Source of the DNA: an uncultured Candidatus Poseidoniales archaeon
Lineage (GTDB): Archaea > Thermoplasmatota > Poseidoniia > Poseidoniales > Thalassarchaeaceae
Assembly: GCA_902514485.1 (NCBI GenBank)
Contig: CABXQY010000004.1
Location: 1 to 38,558 of the forward strand
Reading direction: 5' to 3'
Length of the DNA stretch: 38,558 bases
A program made the position numbers and the translations under genes. Below, one piece after another: positions 9,181 to 25,273 of this stretch (position 1 is its first letter; the number at the start of each line of letters is the position of its first letter). Below the pieces are notes generated by a model, which saw only the letters and a program-made list of their open reading frames with translations, did no database searches and was not told the origin of the DNA.

Positions 9181-11490
9181 TCAATCGTCTCTACGTGGCA
9201 ATAGGAACGCTGCCCCTAGCATACTGATAGTCGCAAGAAGTCCGCCAAATCCGGGCATATTCGGAGCATTTACTCCAGATTCTGAAACGTAACTGTCGGA
9301 CCATGAATCATACAAATCAAATTGATAATCGGGGTGCATGCCAGTTAATTCTAGCGTATCTCCAGCGGAAATCATACCATCCATGTCTACATCCGTGTAA
9401 ACATAAGTTGAGTTGCCTATTTGGCCGGTGAGAGAACTAAGACTTGCTTCTCCCTCAACCATACATTCTGATCTTTCATCAGAATTGCATGATAAGAAGT
9501 TGATTGAGAAGTCGCTCAAAGGCGCCTCGAAAGTTTGATTATCAGCTATAGTGAGGAATAAATCCCTAGGCTCTGAAGTTTCATCATGATCATCATGATC
9601 ATCGTCTTCGACAACCCAAATATGCCCTGCTGCTTCGCAGTTGGCTTCGTCTGAATTGTAGTAATTCTCATGGGTTGTTGTATTGTGGCAATATCCTCCG
9701 TCGTGCTCGTCACCACCATCACCAGGTCCACTGTCTGCAGCAGTCCACATCAATCCAGCATATTCACAATCTTCTTGATTTTCATAAGCTTCATTGATAG
9801 TATGGCTATCCATGTCATAGCAAACCATTCCTGAGTCATCTTCATCAGATCCGTCTTCACAGTCTTCCATTCCATCATTGACCCAATCTGCAGGTATCTC
9901 TTCACCATCGTCACACATCCACATTTCTGGCTCATTGTCCCACTCATCGGATCCATCGTAACAGTCTTCTTCACCGTCATTGACATAATCTGCTGGTATT
10001 TCTTCGCCATCGTTGCACATCCACATTTCTGAACCATCGTTATCATCTTCACCCATGTTGCTTATCCATGAAGATAGTTCATTATAATCAAGTAATCCAT
10101 CGCTATTAGAATCTGAATAATTGAAATGTTCTTGACTTTCAGAACGCTCATCTTCGTCTCCCCATCCTCCATCTTCATAAATGATGAATTGGTCAAATTC
10201 ATCCCAACTTACCATTCCATCATTATTGTAATCCATCATATCGAGCATCATTTCAGGAGATATCTCGTCGCCATGATTATCGGAATCCCACGCAGAAATC
10301 GCGAGAGCAAAGCCTTCAAGTTCATTTATATCTAGTAATCCATTCATGTCATAATCTGATTCATTGAAAATATCGTGTAACTCTTCATTATTTTCTGCGT
10401 CACCTTCTTCGGCCCACGAGTCCCAGAATTCTTCGAAACTAATGTAATTGTCCATATTTGTATCAAACCATTCTAGAACCTGTTCTGCAGAAGGCGATCC
10501 ATTGTCGTCGTCATCGTCATCGTCATGCTCATCGTCACCTTCATCATGGTTATGGAAATCTGGTAATCCATCCCAATGGACCGGGATTGCAGTCTTCGGT
10601 AGTGTTTCATCTACCGTTATTACAACTGCATCGCCCCACATAAGTGTGTAAGACATAATTGAGGTTTCACTCGCATTCGATGTTTCGGTGGAATAAGACA
10701 TAAGTTCAGAATTGGCGTCTATCATAACAGACAAATTAATTGTCGTTCCTGTTTCATTGGTGGTCGATAGATCCATGGTTTGGGAATTTGATGATGAATC
10801 AAAAGTTACAGTCATAGTAGCATTTGCCATATCAAAACCATCATTTTCTAAATCCTCAAGCATTGATGGTTCCTCATCTGACATCTCATCTCCCATTGAC
10901 ATAAGGGACCCGAAAGAGCCGCTCATCATCGGGATTACCCATTCCATGACATCAGGTGATGCATCTCTGGTTTGATATGTTTCATCGACACTCTCTCCTG
11001 CCATTTGGCTGGCCATTAATCCACTCATTTCATGATGAACATTTACGACCTCTCCTACTTGTGTCATCGTATTAGTGATCGAGATCATTGGTTCAAGTTC
11101 TAGAGTCAATTGCACATGAGCTGCATTGGCGGATAGATTAACCATTACTACTTCTTCAATGGTCATCATTTCATCGCCTGTATCTCCAAAATCATCACCC
11201 GCTGGGCCGTTCATATACATAGAATAACCAGCAGTAGTTGTATTCTCATCTAACATACTTTCAATACTAATTTCTTGAGTCATTGCTTCCATAAATACAT
11301 TCATAGAAGCAGCATATATGCAGTCCCCAACAAGCTCAGTTGTAGCGTTTTCATCGTAATTTTTAGCCTGTTCATCCATGCAGCCTAATACATCATCGAT
11401 TAAGTCTTCAAGTGTGTCTTCTGTAAGGCATCCTGAGAGCGGGGTTGAAATTAATAATAGGCTAGCAAGTATAACGGTTACACGGTTCAT
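9181..11490 (-). CDS. Large acidic secreted lipoprotein with EF-hand and LDLa-like repeats and PGF-CTERM-like C-terminus
   Basis: Lipobox LSGC; EF-hand loops (DTNMDNYISFEEF, DYDMNGLLDINEL, DYNNDGMVSWDEF, DSNSDGLLDYNEL); two MWMCxDGEEIPADxVNDGxEDCxDGSDE repeats; C-terminus APNMPGFGGLLATISMLGAAFLLPRRDD. Confidence 0.85.
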   Translation of the reverse strand: MNRVTVILASLLLISTPLSGCLTEDTLEDLIDDVLGCMDEQAKNYDENATTELVGDCIYAASMNVFMEAMTQEISIESMLDENTTTAGYSMYMNGPAGDDFGDTGDEMMTIEEVVMVNLSANAAHVQLTLELEPMISITNTMTQVGEVVNVHHEMSGLMASQMAGESVDETYQTRDASPDVMEWVIPMMSGSFGSLMSMGDEMSDEEPSMLEDLENDGFDMANATMTVTFDSSSNSQTMDLSTTNETGTTINLSVMIDANSELMSYSTETSNASETSIMSYTLMWGDAVVITVDETLPKTAIPVHWDGLPDFHNHDEGDDEHDDDDDDDNGSPSAEQVLEWFDTNMDNYISFEEFWDSWAEEGDAENNEELHDIFNESDYDMNGLLDINELEGFALAISAWDSDNHGDEISPEMMLDMMDYNNDGMVSWDEFDQFIIYEDGGWGDEDERSESQEHFNYSDSNSDGLLDYNELSSWISNMGEDDNDGSEMWMCNDGEEIPADYVNDGEEDCYDGSDEWDNEPEMWMCDDGEEIPADWVNDGMEDCEDGSDEDDSGMVCYDMDSHTINEAYENQEDCEYAGLMWTAADSGPGDGGDEHDGGYCHNTTTHENYYNSDEANCEAAGHIWVVEDDDHDDHDETSEPRDLFLTIADNQTFEAPLSDFSINFLSCNSDERSECMVEGEASLSSLTGQIGNSTYVYTDVDMDGMISAGDTLELTGMHPDYQFDLYDSWSDSYVSESGVNAPNMPGFGGLLATISMLGAAFLLPRRDD

Positions 11491-13889: not shown

Positions 13890-14636
13890 CTACTGTTCGT
13901 CATACTTAATCTCGAGTAAGTCTCTTTCAATTTCTTGTGCCTTTGTAAATAATACATGATTCTCTTTATGTATATGAGCAAAAGTATCCTTTTCAAATAG
14001 TGCTAATTCTCCAAAAAGAGCTCTGTATGTATTACAAGCATGTGCAGGAGGAGTGAAAGAATTTGTTAATTCTCTTAATTTGGCTAAAGCTTGGCCAGCA
14101 GTATAATGTTCGATAAACATTGCACGTATTGGATTTCGAACACTTCCACAATGACTATTAGAATATGTTTTTGAAGCATCAAGTTGCCTTATCAACGGAA
14201 ATAATATTTGCTCTTCTTTCAACATATGAGGTTCTAATTCGTTCCGGAGCTGTTGAAACACCAATGCGACCTCTTTCAAATGGGGCTCTCTTTCCCCATG
14301 GACCCTAGCAACTTTATCGGCATGCTGATTTATTATTGCTAAATTTTGCTTAAGGAAGACATGGTGCGTGTTTTCAATATGATCGCATAATTCTGTGGCA
14401 CTCATTTTATCAAATTCTCCCCGGACTGACTTACTATTCATTAAATCAACATGCCTAATTTCAGAAATGACTTTATCGATTTGAATATCTTTTTCTTCAC
14501 ATGTTTTGGAAAGAGTTTCTCTTCCTCCACAACAGAAATCAATACCAAATTTTGAAAGAACTATTCCCCTAACCGGTAATTCTGTGACAATATCGCATAC
14601 TCTTGTTTCAGCTAAACTAATTTTCTGAGTTCTCAT
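13890..14636 (-). CDS. RIC-family (YtfE/ScdA) di-iron iron-sulfur cluster repair protein
   Basis: ScdA_N-type VCDIVTELPVRGIVLSKFGIDFCCGGRETLSKTCEEK followed by hemerythrin-like region with HIENTHHVFLKQNL, EPHMLKEEQILFPLI, EHYTAGQAL, HIHKENHVLF. ORF track start 14663; internal ATG 14636 preferred. Confidence 0.88.
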   Translation of the reverse strand: MRTQKISLAETRVCDIVTELPVRGIVLSKFGIDFCCGGRETLSKTCEEKDIQIDKVISEIRHVDLMNSKSVRGEFDKMSATELCDHIENTHHVFLKQNLAIINQHADKVARVHGEREPHLKEVALVFQQLRNELEPHMLKEEQILFPLIRQLDASKTYSNSHCGSVRNPIRAMFIEHYTAGQALAKLRELTNSFTPPAHACNTYRALFGELALFEKDTFAHIHKENHVLFTKAQEIERDLLEIKYDEQ

Positions 14637-14673
14637 GTTATTTCCACTAGCCAAATAGAACAAGATTACTTTT

Positions 14674-14687
14674 ACGAATATGTTCGG
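14674..14687 (-). promoter_or_regulatory. Candidate operator CCGAACATATTCGT upstream of the RIC gene
   Basis: Minus strand reads CCGAACATATTCGT-AAAAG-TAATCTTG, ending about 38 nt before the 14636 start; 12-bp core identical to the cox-operon site at 22455-22466. Confidence 0.5.
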
Positions 14688-15176
14688 CTAATTATCAATT
14701 CTTGATACAAATAAAATACCATTTCTGGAATTACCTGTTTCTCCACAATATATTGAACAATCAACCGAAACTTCGCCTACGCCGGGTATGTTGACTATAC
14801 ATGATCCTTGGCTTGAGTATGAAAAATTACCTACGATGCTAGCTAAAAAGTCAACATTATTAACTCGTTTATTAGATAATTTCTTTGATATGTTATACCC
14901 TTCAAGATCAAAAGTATCTGGTATATAATGACCGAATGATGATGAATTAAAGCTCAGTCGAATATATTCTCCTTGTGATACTTCGAAAGTATCATTCGAT
15001 TGAAAGTCCATCTCAATAATAGTCCATTGACCGATCACACATTCTTCTTCAAAAAGAATTTCTTTCTCCTCACATGACTGAAGGGCGGGGTATGAGAGGC
15101 ACCCCCCTAATAATGGAATAAATAAAGTTCCAATTAATAGGAGAGCCCCTCCTTTCAGACTTCTTATTCTATTCAT
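14688..15176 (-). CDS. Hypothetical lipoprotein
   Basis: N-terminus LLIGTLFIPLLGGCLSYP lipobox; overlaps the end of the nirK-like gene. Confidence 0.65.
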   Translation of the reverse strand: MNRIRSLKGGALLLIGTLFIPLLGGCLSYPALQSCEEKEILFEEECVIGQWTIIEMDFQSNDTFEVSQGEYIRLSFNSSSFGHYIPDTFDLEGYNISKKLSNKRVNNVDFLASIVGNFSYSSQGSCIVNIPGVGEVSVDCSIYCGETGNSRNGILFVSRIDN

Positions 15177-16618
15177 AAGTCATCATTAATGACAGTCTCA
15201 TTATTAGATCCTGTGACACTGATAATTCCAACTGCACCCTTATGGAATGCCCTAGTCAAAGCATGATCAACTAGTACGTAATTCGCAGGTACATCAAACG
15301 TCACATCGACTACTACGGCTCCACCTGGATTCACCGAAACTGTCTGAACACTTTTCATTGGAGGAGTCACTAAATCTCCTAAATTGTATACATTATCAAA
15401 AATTTCACCTATCAGATGGAATGATGAAATTGTATTGGGGCCACCTACTCCAAAGTATATTCTCATTGTATCTCCAACTTCAGCATTTATTGTGTTTTCT
15501 CCTGTAAATGTTGCAAATTTACCGTTAAATACCACATAAGTCGGCCTTTCTTCAAATAAAGCATTATCATCAAATTCTTGGTGTCCTTCGGTTCCGGGCC
15601 TCCATTTAGTGTAGATATCTCCTTGCATCAAATAAAGTTCTACATCAACCTCTGGAAGAGCTACTTCGGGTTCGATTAAGATCATTCCATACATTCCCTT
15701 ACTGATATGTGTAGGGATATCTGGGGTGGCACAATGGTACACAAACAATCCAGGATGCATTGCTTGGAATGAAAATACAGATGTCGTGCCTGGTGCTGCT
15801 TCTGTAGCTGCGGCTCCTCCACCTTGCCCGGTTACTGAGTGAAAGTCAACATTGTGATGCATCATATTATCTTCTAAATTAGTAAAATGAACAAAAACAG
15901 TATCTCCAACTCTTGCTCGAAACATCGGGCCGGGAACTGTTCCGTTGTAAGTCCAGTAAGTGAATGTGGTTCCATCTTGGATTTCAGCTACTAGTTCAAC
16001 CGCTTCCATGTATATGTGTACATCTGCTGCTTCATCTCTTCCTGTGGGTTCTGGGACATCTAGCGGATCACGGGCGATATTGTCTGTATCGACTTCTAGG
16101 GCTGTCCCTATTTGCTCTGTAGGTCCAACACCATTACCAATCCCTGACCCGACGATGATTTTACCTTCCATGCCGCCTACTCGGTGACCTGATATGCTGC
16201 AATAATAGAAAAATGTGCCTTCATCTGTAGCAATAAATGATAATGTATCAACTGAATTTTCTGTTACTAATTGTTCAGTTGAAACATCATAGAATTCTAT
16301 AGTAATGTCGTGAAGATTCGCTTCACCCATAATTAGAGTTATACTAACTTTATCATTTAAATCTACATTTAAATCAGGATTATCAATACCGTCAATTTCT
16401 CCACCCGAACCAATATACTTCATGTTCTTTCCAACTAATGTGAAAGATACCTCAGATGCCTCTTCGTATATTACACACTGGTTGGTTGCGGTGTCAAGAG
16501 TGGTTCCTGCACCACAAAATATGTCATTTCCGGCACACCCACTCAAAGCAGTTGTACCAATCAATAACAAAGTCATAGCTAAAGCTTTCATTCTCTTTCT
16601 TTTATTTATATTCAACAT
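15173..16618 (-). CDS. nirK: Copper-containing nitrite reductase (NirK family) lipoprotein with additional N-terminal cupredoxin domain
   Basis: HNVDFHSVTG (T1/T2 His and catalytic Asp), VYHCATPDIPTHISKGM (His-Cys, His, Met), SFHLIGEIFDNV (catalytic His), VDHALTRAFHKGAVG (T2 His). N-terminal extension has a second cupredoxin with FFYYCSISGHRVGGM. Lipobox ALSGC. Confidence 0.88.
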   Translation of the reverse strand: MLNINKRKRMKALAMTLLLIGTTALSGCAGNDIFCGAGTTLDTATNQCVIYEEASEVSFTLVGKNMKYIGSGGEIDGIDNPDLNVDLNDKVSITLIMGEANLHDITIEFYDVSTEQLVTENSVDTLSFIATDEGTFFYYCSISGHRVGGMEGKIIVGSGIGNGVGPTEQIGTALEVDTDNIARDPLDVPEPTGRDEAADVHIYMEAVELVAEIQDGTTFTYWTYNGTVPGPMFRARVGDTVFVHFTNLEDNMMHHNVDFHSVTGQGGGAAATEAAPGTTSVFSFQAMHPGLFVYHCATPDIPTHISKGMYGMILIEPEVALPEVDVELYLMQGDIYTKWRPGTEGHQEFDDNALFEERPTYVVFNGKFATFTGENTINAEVGDTMRIYFGVGGPNTISSFHLIGEIFDNVYNLGDLVTPPMKSVQTVSVNPGGAVVVDVTFDVPANYVLVDHALTRAFHKGAVGIISVTGSNNETVINDDL

Positions 16619-16670: not shown

Positions 16671-16684
16671 CCGAACATGGAAGG
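16671..16684 (-). promoter_or_regulatory. Candidate degenerate operator CCTTCCATGTTCGG upstream of nirK
   Basis: 11/14 match to CCGAACATGTTCGG; minus strand continues GAGTCAG-TTATTGTT; about 53 nt before the nirK start. Confidence 0.35.
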
Positions 16685-16695
16685 ATTTGAAAGAA

Positions 16696-17826
16696 TCAAT
16701 CCCGATATTGTATCCATTCTTGCTGCATGTATACATTCACTAGTTTATCTTCATCTTCTAAAGTTGGGATGGTTGAATTGATATATTCTTTCCACTCTTT
16801 AGAGTCTCCTTCAAAGGCCTTTCCTTCTGTAGTAAATCTCTTACCTGCATATTTTCCTATTTTTCGATTAAATTTGTTTGAAGGAATTATTATTTCATCT
16901 TGATCTGCTGCCCTAAATTTTGAAATGCTTCTCATTTGATTTTTTATCTCTTCAAAGTATAAATTTCTACTATATTCATTGAGATGGTTTCTGTCTGCTT
17001 CTCCCTCGGAATTGCGCTCATCAAAACGACCCTTGATTCCATAGACATAAGCCCAATGTGCACTAGAAGAATCGTCCGTACCAAAAAGGTCTAATGCAGT
17101 ACTGACCCATTTATTGATATATTTCTGTAAAATACGGCATGGAATTATTCCTTGTTTTACAATTCTGCGTAATCCGTTAGCTCCGGTTCCTAAATGAAAG
17201 GATTCTTCTTTCAACATAGGTCCCATGGATGCAGCTAGGGGTTGGAATGAAGATGTACTCAACATATTTAGTTGATATTTGCCATCTCTATCAATGAAAT
17301 TAGTATAACAAAAGAAGTCTAGCCAATGTTCAATTGGAGTATTAAATGTACCCAAAATACGTGTACCTTCGCTCGCATTTCTTTCCAAGAGTTTGGAGGC
17401 TTCTCGGACTCCCTGTGTGTCAAAATAGGTACATAAAATGTATGCCATTTGCCACCCATGCCTCTGTTCTTCACACATCACCCGAAGTGCGGATTTACGA
17501 TCATATTCTGTTGGTGCCGATTTTAATAAATGGCTTTGTTGCTCGACACTAGCGAATTCTGTATCTCCTTGAACAGTAATCATACTAATGATCGCATCTC
17601 GGATATTCTGCTGAGGAATTTGTGCCCTGCGTTTCCATTTAGGCATCTCTTTAAAATCCCCATATTCGATTAATTCCCCTGCAGAATCCCAATCAAATTT
17701 TATATCAAATTTGTAATCTCCAAGCCAAGAAGGATCAAATCCAATTCTCCGTTGCCAATCTTGGAAATCTTTAATCCAAACTTCAAAGCTAGGAAGGTAG
17801 TCATCAACTTTACTTTCTTTTACCAT
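16696..17826 (-). CDS. Ferritin-like diiron protein related to PaaA/PaaC/BoxB-type oxygenase subunits
   Basis: Diiron-like spacing: ...TEFASVEQQSHLL...MCEEQRHGWQM...PIEHWLDFF...MLKEESFHLGTG (two ExxH motifs, EEQRH and EESFH). Confidence 0.65.
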   Translation of the reverse strand: MVKESKVDDYLPSFEVWIKDFQDWQRRIGFDPSWLGDYKFDIKFDWDSAGELIEYGDFKEMPKWKRRAQIPQQNIRDAIISMITVQGDTEFASVEQQSHLLKSAPTEYDRKSALRVMCEEQRHGWQMAYILCTYFDTQGVREASKLLERNASEGTRILGTFNTPIEHWLDFFCYTNFIDRDGKYQLNMLSTSSFQPLAASMGPMLKEESFHLGTGANGLRRIVKQGIIPCRILQKYINKWVSTALDLFGTDDSSSAHWAYVYGIKGRFDERNSEGEADRNHLNEYSRNLYFEEIKNQMRSISKFRAADQDEIIIPSNKFNRKIGKYAGKRFTTEGKAFEGDSKEWKEYINSTIPTLEDEDKLVNVYMQQEWIQYRD

Positions 17827-17845: not shown

Positions 17846-18547
17846 TTAATTTTTAGGCGATTGGCGCCTTACAGAATCTGCAAACTCTTCGATAATATGC
17901 CTTTCAATTAAATGTATTATTTCACATATAGTTGATTTGGAAATACCTGCTACCTTTGCTAAATCAGTAAGAGTGATTCGCCTAGGAGTCTCATAATATC
18001 CTTTTGAAACAGCCAAATCAAAGATTTCACGTTGACGAATTGTCAATAGTCGAGACTCATTTTCTTTGAACAGGGAGTGTACTCGATGAGGCATGTCTGA
18101 ATTTTTCAACGAGTTGACAAGATCTTTTACACGATTATGATCTGTGATAAATTCCCATTCTACCCAACCATCCCTTACCATAAATGGAGTTTGGGGAATA
18201 ACCTCGGCTTTCATTAGAGGTTTCAGAAACCCTCCACCTCTTCGAGCTATTTTTAGTGTCATTTCAACACTATTTTCTTTTTTATCGGTAACATTAACTT
18301 CATCGATGCTAGAATGAACATTTAGATATTCGAGAAACTCATCTATATTAGAAACTGAAGATTGACTTGATGCAACAACTGTACTCAATCCTTTTCCACT
18401 AGGTAAAGGCATGTGTTCGTCCACGCGAATTGTAACATCATGGCGTTCCCTAGTAATATCGCCCGCCCAGTGCCCATTTGGCAATCTTATCGATATTAGT
18501 AAATGTTGCATCTCAGTATTTTTATAATCCATTATTACAATCTCCAA
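17846..18547 (-). CDS. HTH-10 / bacterioopsin-activator (Bat)-like transcriptional regulator
   Basis: C-terminal LLTIRQREIFDLAVSKGYYETPRRITLTDLAKVAGISKSTICEIIHLIERHIIEEF is the canonical HTH-10 arrangement. Confidence 0.88.
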   Translation of the reverse strand: MEIVIMDYKNTEMQHLLISIRLPNGHWAGDITRERHDVTIRVDEHMPLPSGKGLSTVVASSQSSVSNIDEFLEYLNVHSSIDEVNVTDKKENSVEMTLKIARRGGGFLKPLMKAEVIPQTPFMVRDGWVEWEFITDHNRVKDLVNSLKNSDMPHRVHSLFKENESRLLTIRQREIFDLAVSKGYYETPRRITLTDLAKVAGISKSTICEIIHLIERHIIEEFADSVRRQSPKN

Positions 18548-18675: not shown

Positions 18676-20880
18676 TTACTCTTCCCGAACATGTTCGGTT
18701 TTAATATCTGATTTGGAAGATTTAGCAGGAGCCACGATAGGCAGTTCTGTCCAATTGCTGCGAGGGGGCGGAGATGTAGTGAGCCACTCAAAAGTATGCC
18801 CATTCCAAGGGTTATTTCCTGCTTTCTCGCCATTTTTCATACTTCGAACAAAGTTCCAGAAGAATATCATCTGACCTAAAAATACTATCAATGAGCCAAG
18901 CGTAGCCAGTAATTGTTGATCGGCCCAACCAGCCGATTCTTGATACACGTAAATCCTTCTTGGCATATCCCAAAGGCCGAATAATGGAATGAATGTCAAG
19001 TTAATCCCTACAAAAGTAAACCAAAAATGCCACCAGCCTAATTTTTCATCCAATAGCCGGCCGAATATTTTAGGATACCAATAGTAAATACCGCCCAAAG
19101 TCATTACAGCAACTGATCCTAAAGTATAATGGAAATGTGCGACTAAAAAGTAGGTTCCACGAAGTTGGATATCCATTGCTACACTGGAGAGATATACTCC
19201 TGTAATGCCTCCAACTAGGAAAATCCCTATCGCACCCATGACAAAAACAAGTGGAAGCTTCGTAAAGTCTGGCTTTGATTTGTAGAATGTTGCAATTAAA
19301 CTCAAATAAATTAATGCGAAAGGCACTGATATAAGTTCTGTACCTATTGACTCTATTTTTCTGAATGTAGGATCAATTCCTGTAATAAACATATGATGTG
19401 CCCAAACAAGTACGCTGAGTAATGAAGCGACCATAAGGGCATAAAGAATCGTATTACGACCATATAAATGCCTCCTAACAAATGTAGGAACTACTTCCAT
19501 TGCCATCCCAAGCCCAGGTAACAGAACAACATATACTTCAGGGTGTCCGAAAAACCAAAAGATATGCAGCCACCATGTTGTTCCATCTATACTAGGGTCG
19601 AAGAACATAGTAGAAAATACTCTATCTCCGACAAGCATCAGTACTGCAGATAATAATGCAGGGAAGACCGCTAACATCAGTATAACGGTAAACAACATAT
19701 TCCATGTATACATTGGCATATCCCACATTTTCATACTTGAAATGCGATGATTTCCTATCGTAACTAAGAAATTGATGGTCGAAACCGTAACTGATATGAT
19801 TAGTAATACTAAGCCTGCACCAGCGAGAGAGATACCGGACCCTGGGCTATATTCAATGCTAGTTAATGGAGAATAAAATGTCCAACCTGCGTCAGCAGCG
19901 CCATCAAAGAAGAAACCTGAAGCAGCGGTTAACCCACCGAGAACCAAGGTCCAGAATGAAAGTGCATTGAGACGAGGGAATGCCATATCTCTCGCACCTA
20001 TTTGCAGAGGTACTATGTAATTAGCAAAAGCAAATGACATTGGAGAAACAGCGAATAGTACCATTACTGCTCCATGCATTGTAACTGCTTGATTGAATAA
20101 ATCACCCGTCATAAAATCATTATCAGGAATGGCCAATTGTAATCTTACGAGTAAGGAAAGTAATAAACCAATTAGTGCAAAAAATATCGTAGCCCATAAG
20201 TAAAGAATTCCAATGTCTTTATGGTTTGTCGTCGTTAACCAATAAGTCAATTCTTTTTTTCCAAAATTTTCATCTCTGTATAATATCAGAATAATATATG
20301 CTAATATCGCAAATATCGAACCGACAATTATTATCCAAGCAGGTTCATCTATGTCGATGACTGAGCCCGAACCAGCATTTTGACCTTTTATTGAAAATAT
20401 CTCTTTGTTCCACATGTCTCCAGAAGAAGAGCCATCACCATTCACTGAGTTAACTAATAGAGTGAAGTCCGTAGAAACTTTATCTGATTCCGGTGCAACC
20501 CATTGTACTAACCATATTCTCTGATTATTTCCTTGATCTGTATGAGTTGCTGCGTTATCAATAATTTGGACGGTTTCTGCCAGAGATATTAGAGTACCTC
20601 GATCTGATTTTAAATTGAAACCTCCAAAGTTTTCTCCGCTTTCTTCGGGCCCTCCAGTAAAACTGATTGTGAAATTATATGACTCGGATGCTATGAATTC
20701 ATTTGGTATTCCTTCGATTGAAATAATTACTTCGTCACTAGCCACAGGACCATGGCAGTTACATCCTGAAGTAACTGCTGCTCCTGAAATACCGGATGGT
20801 AAAGCAGTTAGTTGAGGCGTTATTGCAATTAATAGGCCTATTACGAAAATTACAGCGACAATTTTTCTACTCTTTATCAT
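18676..20880 (-). CDS. coxA: Heme-copper oxidase subunit I with N-terminal Reeler/choice-of-anchor-V-like extracellular domain
   Basis: TTNHKDIGILYLW, FWFFGHPEVYVVLLPGLG, AHHMFITG, GTYFLVAHFHYTL; N-terminal ~190 aa has TSGCNCHG, GGFNLKSDRGTL, VNGDGSSSGD. Confidence 0.95.
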   Translation of the reverse strand: MIKSRKIVAVIFVIGLLIAITPQLTALPSGISGAAVTSGCNCHGPVASDEVIISIEGIPNEFIASESYNFTISFTGGPEESGENFGGFNLKSDRGTLISLAETVQIIDNAATHTDQGNNQRIWLVQWVAPESDKVSTDFTLLVNSVNGDGSSSGDMWNKEIFSIKGQNAGSGSVIDIDEPAWIIIVGSIFAILAYIILILYRDENFGKKELTYWLTTTNHKDIGILYLWATIFFALIGLLLSLLVRLQLAIPDNDFMTGDLFNQAVTMHGAVMVLFAVSPMSFAFANYIVPLQIGARDMAFPRLNALSFWTLVLGGLTAASGFFFDGAADAGWTFYSPLTSIEYSPGSGISLAGAGLVLLIISVTVSTINFLVTIGNHRISSMKMWDMPMYTWNMLFTVILMLAVFPALLSAVLMLVGDRVFSTMFFDPSIDGTTWWLHIFWFFGHPEVYVVLLPGLGMAMEVVPTFVRRHLYGRNTILYALMVASLLSVLVWAHHMFITGIDPTFRKIESIGTELISVPFALIYLSLIATFYKSKPDFTKLPLVFVMGAIGIFLVGGITGVYLSSVAMDIQLRGTYFLVAHFHYTLGSVAVMTLGGIYYWYPKIFGRLLDEKLGWWHFWFTFVGINLTFIPLFGLWDMPRRIYVYQESAGWADQQLLATLGSLIVFLGQMIFFWNFVRSMKNGEKAGNNPWNGHTFEWLTTSPPPRSNWTELPIVAPAKSSKSDIKTEHVREE
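18686..18699. promoter_or_regulatory. Candidate operator, perfect 14-bp palindrome CCGAACATGTTCGG, inside the coxA 3' end and upstream of the HTH-10 gene
   Basis: Minus strand reads CCGAACATGTTCGG-GAAGAG-TAATATTG, the same layout as the RIC, nirK and cox sites; about 140 nt upstream of the regulator start. Confidence 0.45.
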
Positions 20881-21617
20881 AAGTTTTCCTCCGAATTATA
20901 CCAATTACTGAAATCTTCGAGAGACATTACTTCAACCTCACTCATCATTATTGCATGTTCATCGCCGCATAGCTCCGCGCAACGAATTGGAAAAATACCG
21001 ACATCATCCGCTAATATCCAACCATCATTTACTCGACCTGGGATGGCATCAATTTTTATTCGATGATCAGGAAGTGCAAAGGAGTGGAAAACATCACCAG
21101 ATGTGACCTCAAAGATAACCGACACATTTACAGGGATTTTCATCGATTCGCCTGTTGCGCTATTGATAGATGCCCCATTGGGATATTCGTAAATCCAATA
21201 ATATTGGTACCCTGTTACTTCAATTGTGAATGAATCATCGGTAGTTTCAGGATCTTCGAAGAAATTTATTGAATCAAAGGTTGATTCGGAGAGAATTAGT
21301 AAAAATAATGTGACAACGATTGTTATTGCTCCGGCTACTTTTTTATTATCCCTGATTACTGGCAATTCTCCTATCTCCATAGATTCTTCTAAATTATCCT
21401 CAGGAGAAGTTGTAAGAAGGTAAAGGAAGTAAAGATATACAGCGCCACCGATTATTGTTCCTAGTGTCCAATAGAGTGTGAATAAATCATCGTATTTATC
21501 TGCATGTGCACCGGTCCCACCAAGTCCTTGGAACCAATTAAAAATAGAGGCAAATGTTGTCATTAAGAGAATTATTGATATAATAATTAGTCTAAATTGA
21601 TGCTTTTCTACACTCAT
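20877..21617 (-). CDS. coxB: Cytochrome c oxidase subunit II (CuA)
   Basis: YQYYWIYEYPNG, DVFHSFALPDHRIKIDAIPGR, CAELCGDEHAIMM CuA motif. Start likely the internal ATG at 21617 overlapping the coxC stop. Confidence 0.93.
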   Translation of the reverse strand: MSVEKHQFRLIIISIILLMTTFASIFNWFQGLGGTGAHADKYDDLFTLYWTLGTIIGGAVYLYFLYLLTTSPEDNLEESMEIGELPVIRDNKKVAGAITIVVTLFLLILSESTFDSINFFEDPETTDDSFTIEVTGYQYYWIYEYPNGASINSATGESMKIPVNVSVIFEVTSGDVFHSFALPDHRIKIDAIPGRVNDGWILADDVGIFPIRCAELCGDEHAIMMSEVEVMSLEDFSNWYNSEENL

Positions 21618-22414
21618 TAAATTGCCTCCAAGTAAACAATGAAAAACAAAAGTATCCATACCGCATCAACAAAATGCCAATACATTGTAATCGCACGAAA
21701 ACTATCATACCTAGGCCTGTCGTAAAATCCTTTTTTCATAAGTAAAAATACTACACTGAACATTATTATTCCAATCATTACGTGCAAACCATGTAAACCA
21801 GTAAGAGAAAAAAATGCAGTACCATAAGGATGATCTGACCAAATAAATCCTGCGTTATAGTATTCATACATTTGAATTAATAAGAATGATAACCCTAAAC
21901 ATATAGTGGCTAATAGTAACCTCTTAGACATATCATAATCTTCTTCTAAGTGTTTTTCAAGAGATTTATGTGCTGTAAATCCAGATAACAATAGAATCAC
22001 TGTATTAATTGAGACTAATGTCAAATCGTGTTCAACCTCAGGAGGTGGCCAAGATCCACCTACTGCTTCTGACCAGCTGACTGTATGCCAACGTGTCCAG
22101 AACCAATATGCGAAAAAACTCGCAAATATTATTGCTTCAGTAATAATAATCCACAACATAGCCCAAGAAGAATCGTTCCAGGACTCGAAATCATTCTCCT
22201 CTTCCCTATAATTCCAGAGAATCGTTTCTTCATACGTCCATCTATAAATTGCATAAATTAACACGGGCAACCCAATAATTACTAATGGCCAAACTAGTAA
22301 ACCACCTAAACAGAGAGTGATTGCTAATGAAAGAATAATTGGGGCGCTACTATTATGAATCTCTCCTTTACTATTGATATGATCTTCTATCTTCTCAACT
22401 TCCAATCTTTCCAC
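21617..22414 (-). CDS. coxC: Cytochrome c oxidase subunit III
   Basis: ITEAIIFASFFAYWFWTRWH, GLHGLHVMIGIIMF, YWHFVDAVWILLFFIVYL; GTG start at 22414. Confidence 0.93.
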   Translation of the reverse strand: MERLEVEKIEDHINSKGEIHNSSAPIILSLAITLCLGGLLVWPLVIIGLPVLIYAIYRWTYEETILWNYREEENDFESWNDSSWAMLWIIITEAIIFASFFAYWFWTRWHTVSWSEAVGGSWPPPEVEHDLTLVSINTVILLLSGFTAHKSLEKHLEEDYDMSKRLLLATICLGLSFLLIQMYEYYNAGFIWSDHPYGTAFFSLTGLHGLHVMIGIIMFSVVFLLMKKGFYDRPRYDSFRAITMYWHFVDAVWILLFFIVYLEAI

Positions 22415-22453: not shown

Positions 22454-22467
22454 ACGAACATATTCGG
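22454..22467 (-). promoter_or_regulatory. Candidate operator CCGAATATGTTCGT upstream of the cox operon
   Basis: Minus strand reads CCGAATATGTTCGT-GCTTC-AATTAATTG, about 40 nt before the coxC start; a second partial site CCGAATATGTATGC lies at 22497-22510. Confidence 0.5.
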
Positions 22468-24757: not shown

Positions 24758-25273
24758 ATGAAGTTCGTGAAGTTTTACACCTTGGGTCTGGTGTTTCCAT
24801 TGATTGTGTTCTCATTATTAGGAACAAATGTGATTTCTGAAGAGAGTGGAAATGCGATCCAAGAAGAGGAAATTATTATCTCGGTAGATAGCACAAATCT
24901 ACGTTTTTCTCCGGCGGAAGTAACTATTTCTGAAGGAGATACTGTTAGGTTTTTTTGGGATGGGGAATTACTAGCGCACAATGCAGTTGAAGAAAATAAT
25001 CTTTTTGACTCGGGGGAGCCGGAGAGGAATGTAGACTACTCATTCACATTTGAAAAAGGAATGAATGGGACATATGAATTCGTATGCGAACCTCATGAAT
25101 CTGCAAATATGATCGGAAGGATTATCGTAACTCCTGCACCAGTTATTGAAGATAATACGACTGAAGAAGATAATGTGAAGGAAAACTCTGTACCCGGTTT
25201 TTCAGCACTCACATTGATTGGTGCTTTAGTGATTAGTGGTTTGGCGACTAGAGGGGAAATGGGGCGTGTATGA
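24758..25273 (+). CDS. Secreted cupredoxin (plastocyanin/azurin-like) with C-terminal anchor
   Basis: LRFSPAEVTISEGDTVRFFWDGELLAHNAVEE...YEFVCEPHESANMIGRIIV (Cu ligands H, C, H, M); C-terminal SVPGFSALTLIGALVISGL tail. Confidence 0.85.
   Translation: MKFVKFYTLGLVFPLIVFSLLGTNVISEESGNAIQEEEIIISVDSTNLRFSPAEVTISEGDTVRFFWDGELLAHNAVEENNLFDSGEPERNVDYSFTFEKGMNGTYEFVCEPHESANMIGRIIVTPAPVIEDNTTEEDNVKENSVPGFSALTLIGALVISGLATRGEMGRV

Follow-up and report, generated by a model that had tools for sequence, protein, structure and literature searches.

The 38,558-nucleotide stretch of DNA analysed here (the window), located on contig C4 of a Candidatus Poseidoniales genome (Marine Group II, MGII; family Thalassarchaeaceae), carries a copper nitrite reductase gene among neighbours that we read as a probable low-oxygen nitrite-reduction module of this order, comprising NirK, a small partner protein, the RIC repair protein and an operator regulon of an HTH_10 regulator (Table 1). 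In surface waters no archaea are more abundant than Marine Group II, whose members are generally regarded as aerobic heterotrophs. The host genome is 909 kb in size and 52.7% complete, and its archaeal identity, proposed in a first-pass annotation of the window, was supported by its related genomes, which include named Ca. Thalassarchaeaceae MAGs of the same family.

Table 1 Coordinates of the module genes, protein segments and operator-like sites within the window
Feature	Position	Strand	Basis or remark
RIC (ScdA/YtfE) di-iron Fe-S cluster repair protein	13890..14663	-	TIGR03652, co-occurrence; probable ATG at 14636
Operator-like palindrome CGAATATGTTCG	14675..14686	.	39-50 nt upstream of probable RIC ATG
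Small secreted lipoprotein-like partner, 162 aa, cupredoxin-like fold	14688..15176	-	Pairing with nirK, Foldseek, profile search
nirK, N-terminal cupredoxin-tethered copper nitrite reductase, 481 aa	15173..16618	-	TIGR02376 and 2dv6 alignment
NirK two-domain CuNIR core, ~residues 179-478	15185..16084	-	TIGR02376, 2dv6, homologue alignment
NirK N-terminal cupredoxin domain, ~residues 55-158	16145..16456	-	2dv6 alignment; ligands invariant
NirK signal segment, lipobox-like L-S-G-C ending at C28	16535..16618	-	Sequence; G27 and C28 invariant in 11 homologues
Half-site CATGTTCG	16672..16679	-	-61 from nirK ATG
BoxB/PaaA-like di-iron protein, 77 nt upstream of nirK	16696..17826	-	PF05138; TIGR03225 200.5 bits, below cut-off 499
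HTH_10 regulator (Bat/NarO-type DNA-binding domain), candidate palindrome binder	17846..18547	-	PF04967 56.7 bits
Operator-like palindrome CGAACATGTTCG, exact	18686..18697	.	Upstream of HTH_10 gene, within last COX1 codons
Cytochrome oxidase subunit I (COX1), N-terminal choice-of-anchor V domain	18676..20880	-	PF00115 418 bits; NF041895
Cytochrome oxidase subunit II (COX2)	20877..21659	-	PF00116
Cytochrome oxidase subunit III (COX3)	21617..22414	-	PF00510
Operator-like palindrome CGAACATATTCG	22455..22466	.	Upstream of COX3-COX2-COX1 operon

The nirK reading frame is intact, with an ATG start and no internal stops, and its product scored 344.2 bits against the NCBIfam equivalog TIGR02376 (Cu_nitrite_red), above the curated cut-off of 296.3. 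The best solved structure was 2dv6 (E = 7.7e-127), to which residues 64-478 could be aligned. All ligands of the core type 1 copper (H255, C296, H304 and M309) and of the type 2 copper (H260, H295 and H452) are present together with the catalytic residues D258 (AspCAT) and H401 (HisCAT), and the N-terminal cupredoxin fused to this core has a blue-copper site of its own formed by H103, C140, H145 and M150. These copper and catalytic residues are all kept in 11 MGII homologues, truncated stretches aside. The first-pass annotation had named a NirK-type reductase with an extra N-terminal cupredoxin and a lipobox, and each of these features was found on closer analysis; the invariant lipobox cysteine indicates that NirK is probably lipid-anchored on the outside of the cell. 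An AlphaFold2 model built from the 11 close homologues, a shallow alignment, was poor (mean pLDDT 52) and was not used, so that the type 2 site rests on residue conservation rather than on a model. Assignment as a laccase-like two-domain multicopper oxidase was rejected, since laccase-type NCBIfam models gave 16-35 bits, far below their cut-offs, and the phylogeny that the annotation had proposed as a check placed the NirK core in a supported CuNIR clade, not with the laccase-like enzymes. We consider the identity of NirK, a further representative of an established enzyme class, to be firm, and we infer its mechanism: judged by its residues, the enzyme should convert nitrite to nitric oxide. 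A role of the N-terminal cupredoxin as a tethered electron donor to the core is plausible but debated, because the tethered type 1 copper lies ~24 Å from the core type 1 copper in the solved Hyphomicrobium enzymes (PMC7201279).

Directly downstream of nirK, overlapping its stop by four bases (ATGA), lies the gene of the small partner protein, for which neither Pfam nor NCBIfam returned a family. Besides the window, eight genomes carry a full-length partner after nirK in differing chromosomal settings, giving 9/12 NirK-positive versus 0/281 NirK-negative genomes (hypergeometric 6e-15, relatedness ignored). A moderate AlphaFold2 model (pLDDT 76) gave weak Foldseek matches of cupredoxin-like fold to the NosZ CuA domain and to nitrosocyanin, and a profile search likewise matched nitrosocyanin weakly (E = 3.6e-5). 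Its invariant residues include H83, C126, C140 and C144. We rejected a CuA assignment: H83 and the C140-x3-C144 loop are invariant, but no conserved His or Met follows. The pairing, fold and residues suggest a copper- or NO-related accessory protein. A second small cupredoxin, a possible electron carrier, is encoded at 24758-25273 of the window (PF00127, 49 bits), ~8 kb from nirK.

Adjacent to the nirK-partner pair, the RIC gene product exceeded the TIGR03652 cut-off (229.6 versus 204.7 bits). RIC was found in 7/293 Poseidoniales genomes, six of which have NirK (p = 8e-9), and NarG in four, three of them NirK-positive (p = 2e-4); these tests, like that for the partner, ignore relatedness, and two of the genomes (G096 and G127) are near-duplicates. 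In another genome (G118), narGHJI and the RIC operon point away from each other, and palindromes lie between them. The annotation had seen no nor or nos gene within the window, which was borne out, and nor, nos and nar were missing from the host genome, weak evidence alone at its completeness. Profile searches of the 12 NirK-positive genomes, all incomplete, detected neither NorB nor NosZ; matches to NosZ were confined to CuA-like or cupredoxin segments within oxidase, NirK and partner proteins. An ODP flavodiiron match above cut-off was obtained in one NirK-positive genome. Because no NO reductase was found in these incomplete genomes, NO is the likely end product of MGII NirK.

Further loci were noticed elsewhere in MGII. 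Divergent COX1-like membrane proteins of 562-611 aa, with few histidines and no family, are encoded at L142:3995-5683 (G000:C22) and L156:3630-5465; the 562-aa protein of L142 was considered as an NO reductase and dismissed, having few histidines, no FeB pair by eye and no family. At L135 (G198:C20), which belongs to an MGII genome (74% complete) in which no NirK was found, a palindrome lies upstream of RIC. Anaerobic benzoyl-CoA degradation genes adjoin RIC or nar at L139:1-6760 (G046:C1) and at L153/L154 (G017:C5, G096:C110), where Had exceeded its cut-off (TIGR03201, 430 bits), Oah fell just under (459.5 versus 464.5) and benzoyl-CoA reductase subunits were best matches yet below cut-off; together with a tryptophanase/tyrosine phenol-lyase, these loci possibly serve nitrate-linked degradation of aromatic amino acids.

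True NirK is patchily distributed, occurring in 12/293 Poseidoniales genomes spread over two families. The related MGII MAGs bear the names ETNP (2), Arabian (1), Guaymas (2), SI053/SI054 (3), SP208, UBA623 and UWMA-0350; we take ETNP and SI to denote the Eastern Tropical North Pacific and Saanich Inlet, and we presume that the majority of these locations are oxygen-poor. In a NirK tree in which one groundwater Nitrososphaerota sequence stood in place of the ammonia-oxidising Nitrososphaerota, MGII NirK formed one clade (100/100) within a Thermoplasmatota group (98/99) adjoining a Hyphomicrobium/Deinococcus/alphaproteobacterial group. The MGII gene tree is at odds with taxonomy: a single clade of the two NirKs of genus g1 was rejected (AU p = 5e-5), and the NirKs of family f2 nest inside those of family f1, with marginal support (p = 0.04). 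This conflict, together with nirK neighbourhoods that vary from genome to genome, fits lateral spread of nirK among MGII genera. A search of viral contigs for NirK returned no relatives.

Upstream of nirK the window encodes a BoxB/PaaA-like protein, an HTH_10 regulator and a terminal oxidase, whose COX1 is the second of two in the host genome. We discarded the COX3-COX2-COX1-HTH_10-BoxB block as part of a nirK unit, since the BoxB-like gene is core in Poseidoniales (249/293 genomes) and nirK lies elsewhere in most genomes. The Bat-domain fragment encoded beside a haloarchaeal nirK, with which the HTH_10 protein was compared, has no HTH. The choice-of-anchor V domain of the window COX1 bears a CNCH motif, and small stand-alone genes similar to this domain precede HTH_10 in other genomes. 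The protein encoded at positions 9181-11490 of the window is large and secreted, contains EF-hand and LDL-receptor class A repeats and terminates in a PGF-CTERM-like sequence.

While nirK upstream regions were being compared, the palindrome CGAACATGTTCG was noticed as recurrent. The pattern CGAAYATRTTCG occurs three times in the host genome, against ~0.26 expected from composition and none for a reversed control pattern, and all three sites are in the nirK cluster, before RIC, the HTH_10 gene and the oxidase operon. Across 13 genomes with NirK or RIC we counted 51 palindrome sites versus 1 control site, and across 12 NirK-negative genomes 15 versus 0. The palindrome adjoins HTH_10/BoxB, COX3 and choice-of-anchor V genes in several genera, sites lying next to the BoxB/PaaA-like gene or its HTH_10 neighbour, and it precedes RIC and the nar operon in other genomes when one or two mismatches are allowed; some further sites have no evident link. 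MGII nirK promoters bear full or half sites: in 9/10 loci the 110 nt preceding nirK contain a half-site or more, versus 5/108 background genes (p = 2e-9, an optimistic value as the motif had been noticed in the same promoters before testing). The nirK of the window has a half-site only; readthrough transcription from the HTH_10-BoxB operon that precedes it could account for its expression instead. In Haloferax larsenii, the motif is found at -92 and -162 of nirK. We predict that the MGII HTH_10 protein binds the palindrome.

The palindrome sites also allow that the motif serves Poseidoniales as a general operator of respiration with no connection to nitrogen oxides, nirK and RIC having simply inserted under oxidase control or come to share it. 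This is a serious possibility, though one we doubt: the sites at HTH_10/BoxB and oxidase genes of NirK-negative genomes agree with it, but it leaves aside the palindromes at unlinked RIC, nar and nirK loci of other genomes and the identical sequence in haloarchaeal denitrification promoters. NirK might also serve nitrite detoxification, copper handling or NO signalling in place of energy-yielding respiration, which we consider unlikely. Nine of the 12 NirK-positive genomes have no NarG match above cut-off and none has NorB or NosZ, and ammonia oxidisers likewise possess nirK without nor, its role there being debated (PMC10359470), whereas the operator is linked to or shared with the terminal oxidase, nar and RIC, and NarG is full-length in the other three NirK-positive genomes.

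The functional tie of the partner can be questioned in the same way. It is absent at two NirK loci (L024 and L026; a third, L027, is cut), its ligand sets are incomplete for known copper site types and its profile matches are weak, as would be expected of an ordinary lipoprotein that merely sits beside nirK. Against that explanation, which seems to us quite improbable, the full-length protein occurs only with nirK in varied settings, its four histidine and cysteine positions are invariant and it matches cupredoxin-like folds. Mis-binned bacterial DNA, an explanation already largely refuted and now barely credible, would draw on the fragmented host assembly and the rarity of nirK within the order, but the nirK contig also bears a thermosome gene and the oxidase, HTH_10 and core BoxB-like genes, its NirK clusters with other Thermoplasmatota NirK, and nirK is present in independent MAGs of several studies.

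In the low-oxygen nitrite-reduction module that we favour, NirK, anchored outside the cell, would receive electrons via the blue-copper domain at its N terminus and reduce nitrite to NO, while the partner would probably serve it there in electron transfer, copper delivery or NO handling, and RIC would repair Fe-S clusters harmed by the NO produced. The nirK-partner cassette may move laterally between MGII genera and become wired into a pre-existing respiratory regulon. Here the HTH_10 regulator would bind copies of CGAACATGTTCG located in front of its own gene and of the second oxidase operon, as well as of RIC, nirK and, in genomes that have it, nar, and would switch cells toward nitrogen oxides at low oxygen. 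A broader and doubtful extension is that the 12-bp operator and the HTH_10 class are common to haloarchaea and Poseidoniales, that nirK-partner, RIC and nar were repeatedly plugged into an ancestral oxygen-response regulon, and that the partner represents a novel kind of copper protein devoted to serving an enzyme that makes NO. If the module is real, its lateral spread would make some MGII sources of NO in oxygen-deficient seawater, and the DNA word shared with haloarchaeal denitrification promoters would permit a direct test of how nitrogen-oxide respiration is regulated in non-haloarchaeal archaea.

The window NirK has the same three-domain order as the Hyphomicrobium denitrificans CuNIR (2dv6) and all of its copper and catalytic residues; unlike that enzyme, it is archaeal, bears a lipobox and is paired with an extra cupredoxin-like protein. 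Two tethered Hyphomicrobium CuNIRs are hexamers formed as a dimer of trimers, and their N-terminal peptide contains a conserved His27 that anchors substrate (PMC7201279), whereas residues 1-63 of the window NirK hold no histidine. Like nitrosocyanin and the CuA domains of NosZ and COX2, to which it is weakly similar by profile and fold, the partner has a C-x3-C loop; unlike the CuA domains, it has no His and Met after the second Cys.

In Haloferax mediterranei, the nar, nirK, nor and nos promoters carry the same motif, and its mutation lowers nor and nos promoter activity (PMC10062603), while NarO, likened to bacterioopsin activators, activates the denitrification genes of Haloferax volcanii (PMC11218638). 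The MGII arrangement resembles this NarO-type regulon, as the haloarchaeal operator CGAAYATDKTYG recurs as a 12-bp palindrome before nirK (a half-site in the window), nar and linked genes, and an HTH_10 regulator is encoded within the cluster; it differs in that the motif also precedes the terminal oxidase operon and RIC, and neither nor nor nos was found. Thermoplasmatota nirK was reported at phylum level in oxygen-deficient zone MAGs in 2023 (PMC10359470). In 2017, nirK was reported in one MGII bin from the Gulf of Mexico, with transcripts in two suboxic samples (Thrash et al., PMC5596340), and MGII nar genes, inferred to be laterally acquired, were described in 2018 (Rinke et al., PMC6461757); our findings likewise concern nitrogen-oxide respiration genes of low-oxygen MGII. 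Within the part of the literature covered here, we found neither the nirK-partner pair nor the link to RIC nor the operator described for MGII. Thus, nirK in MGII was already known, and the new parts are its paired protein and its proposed wiring into a haloarchaea-like regulon.
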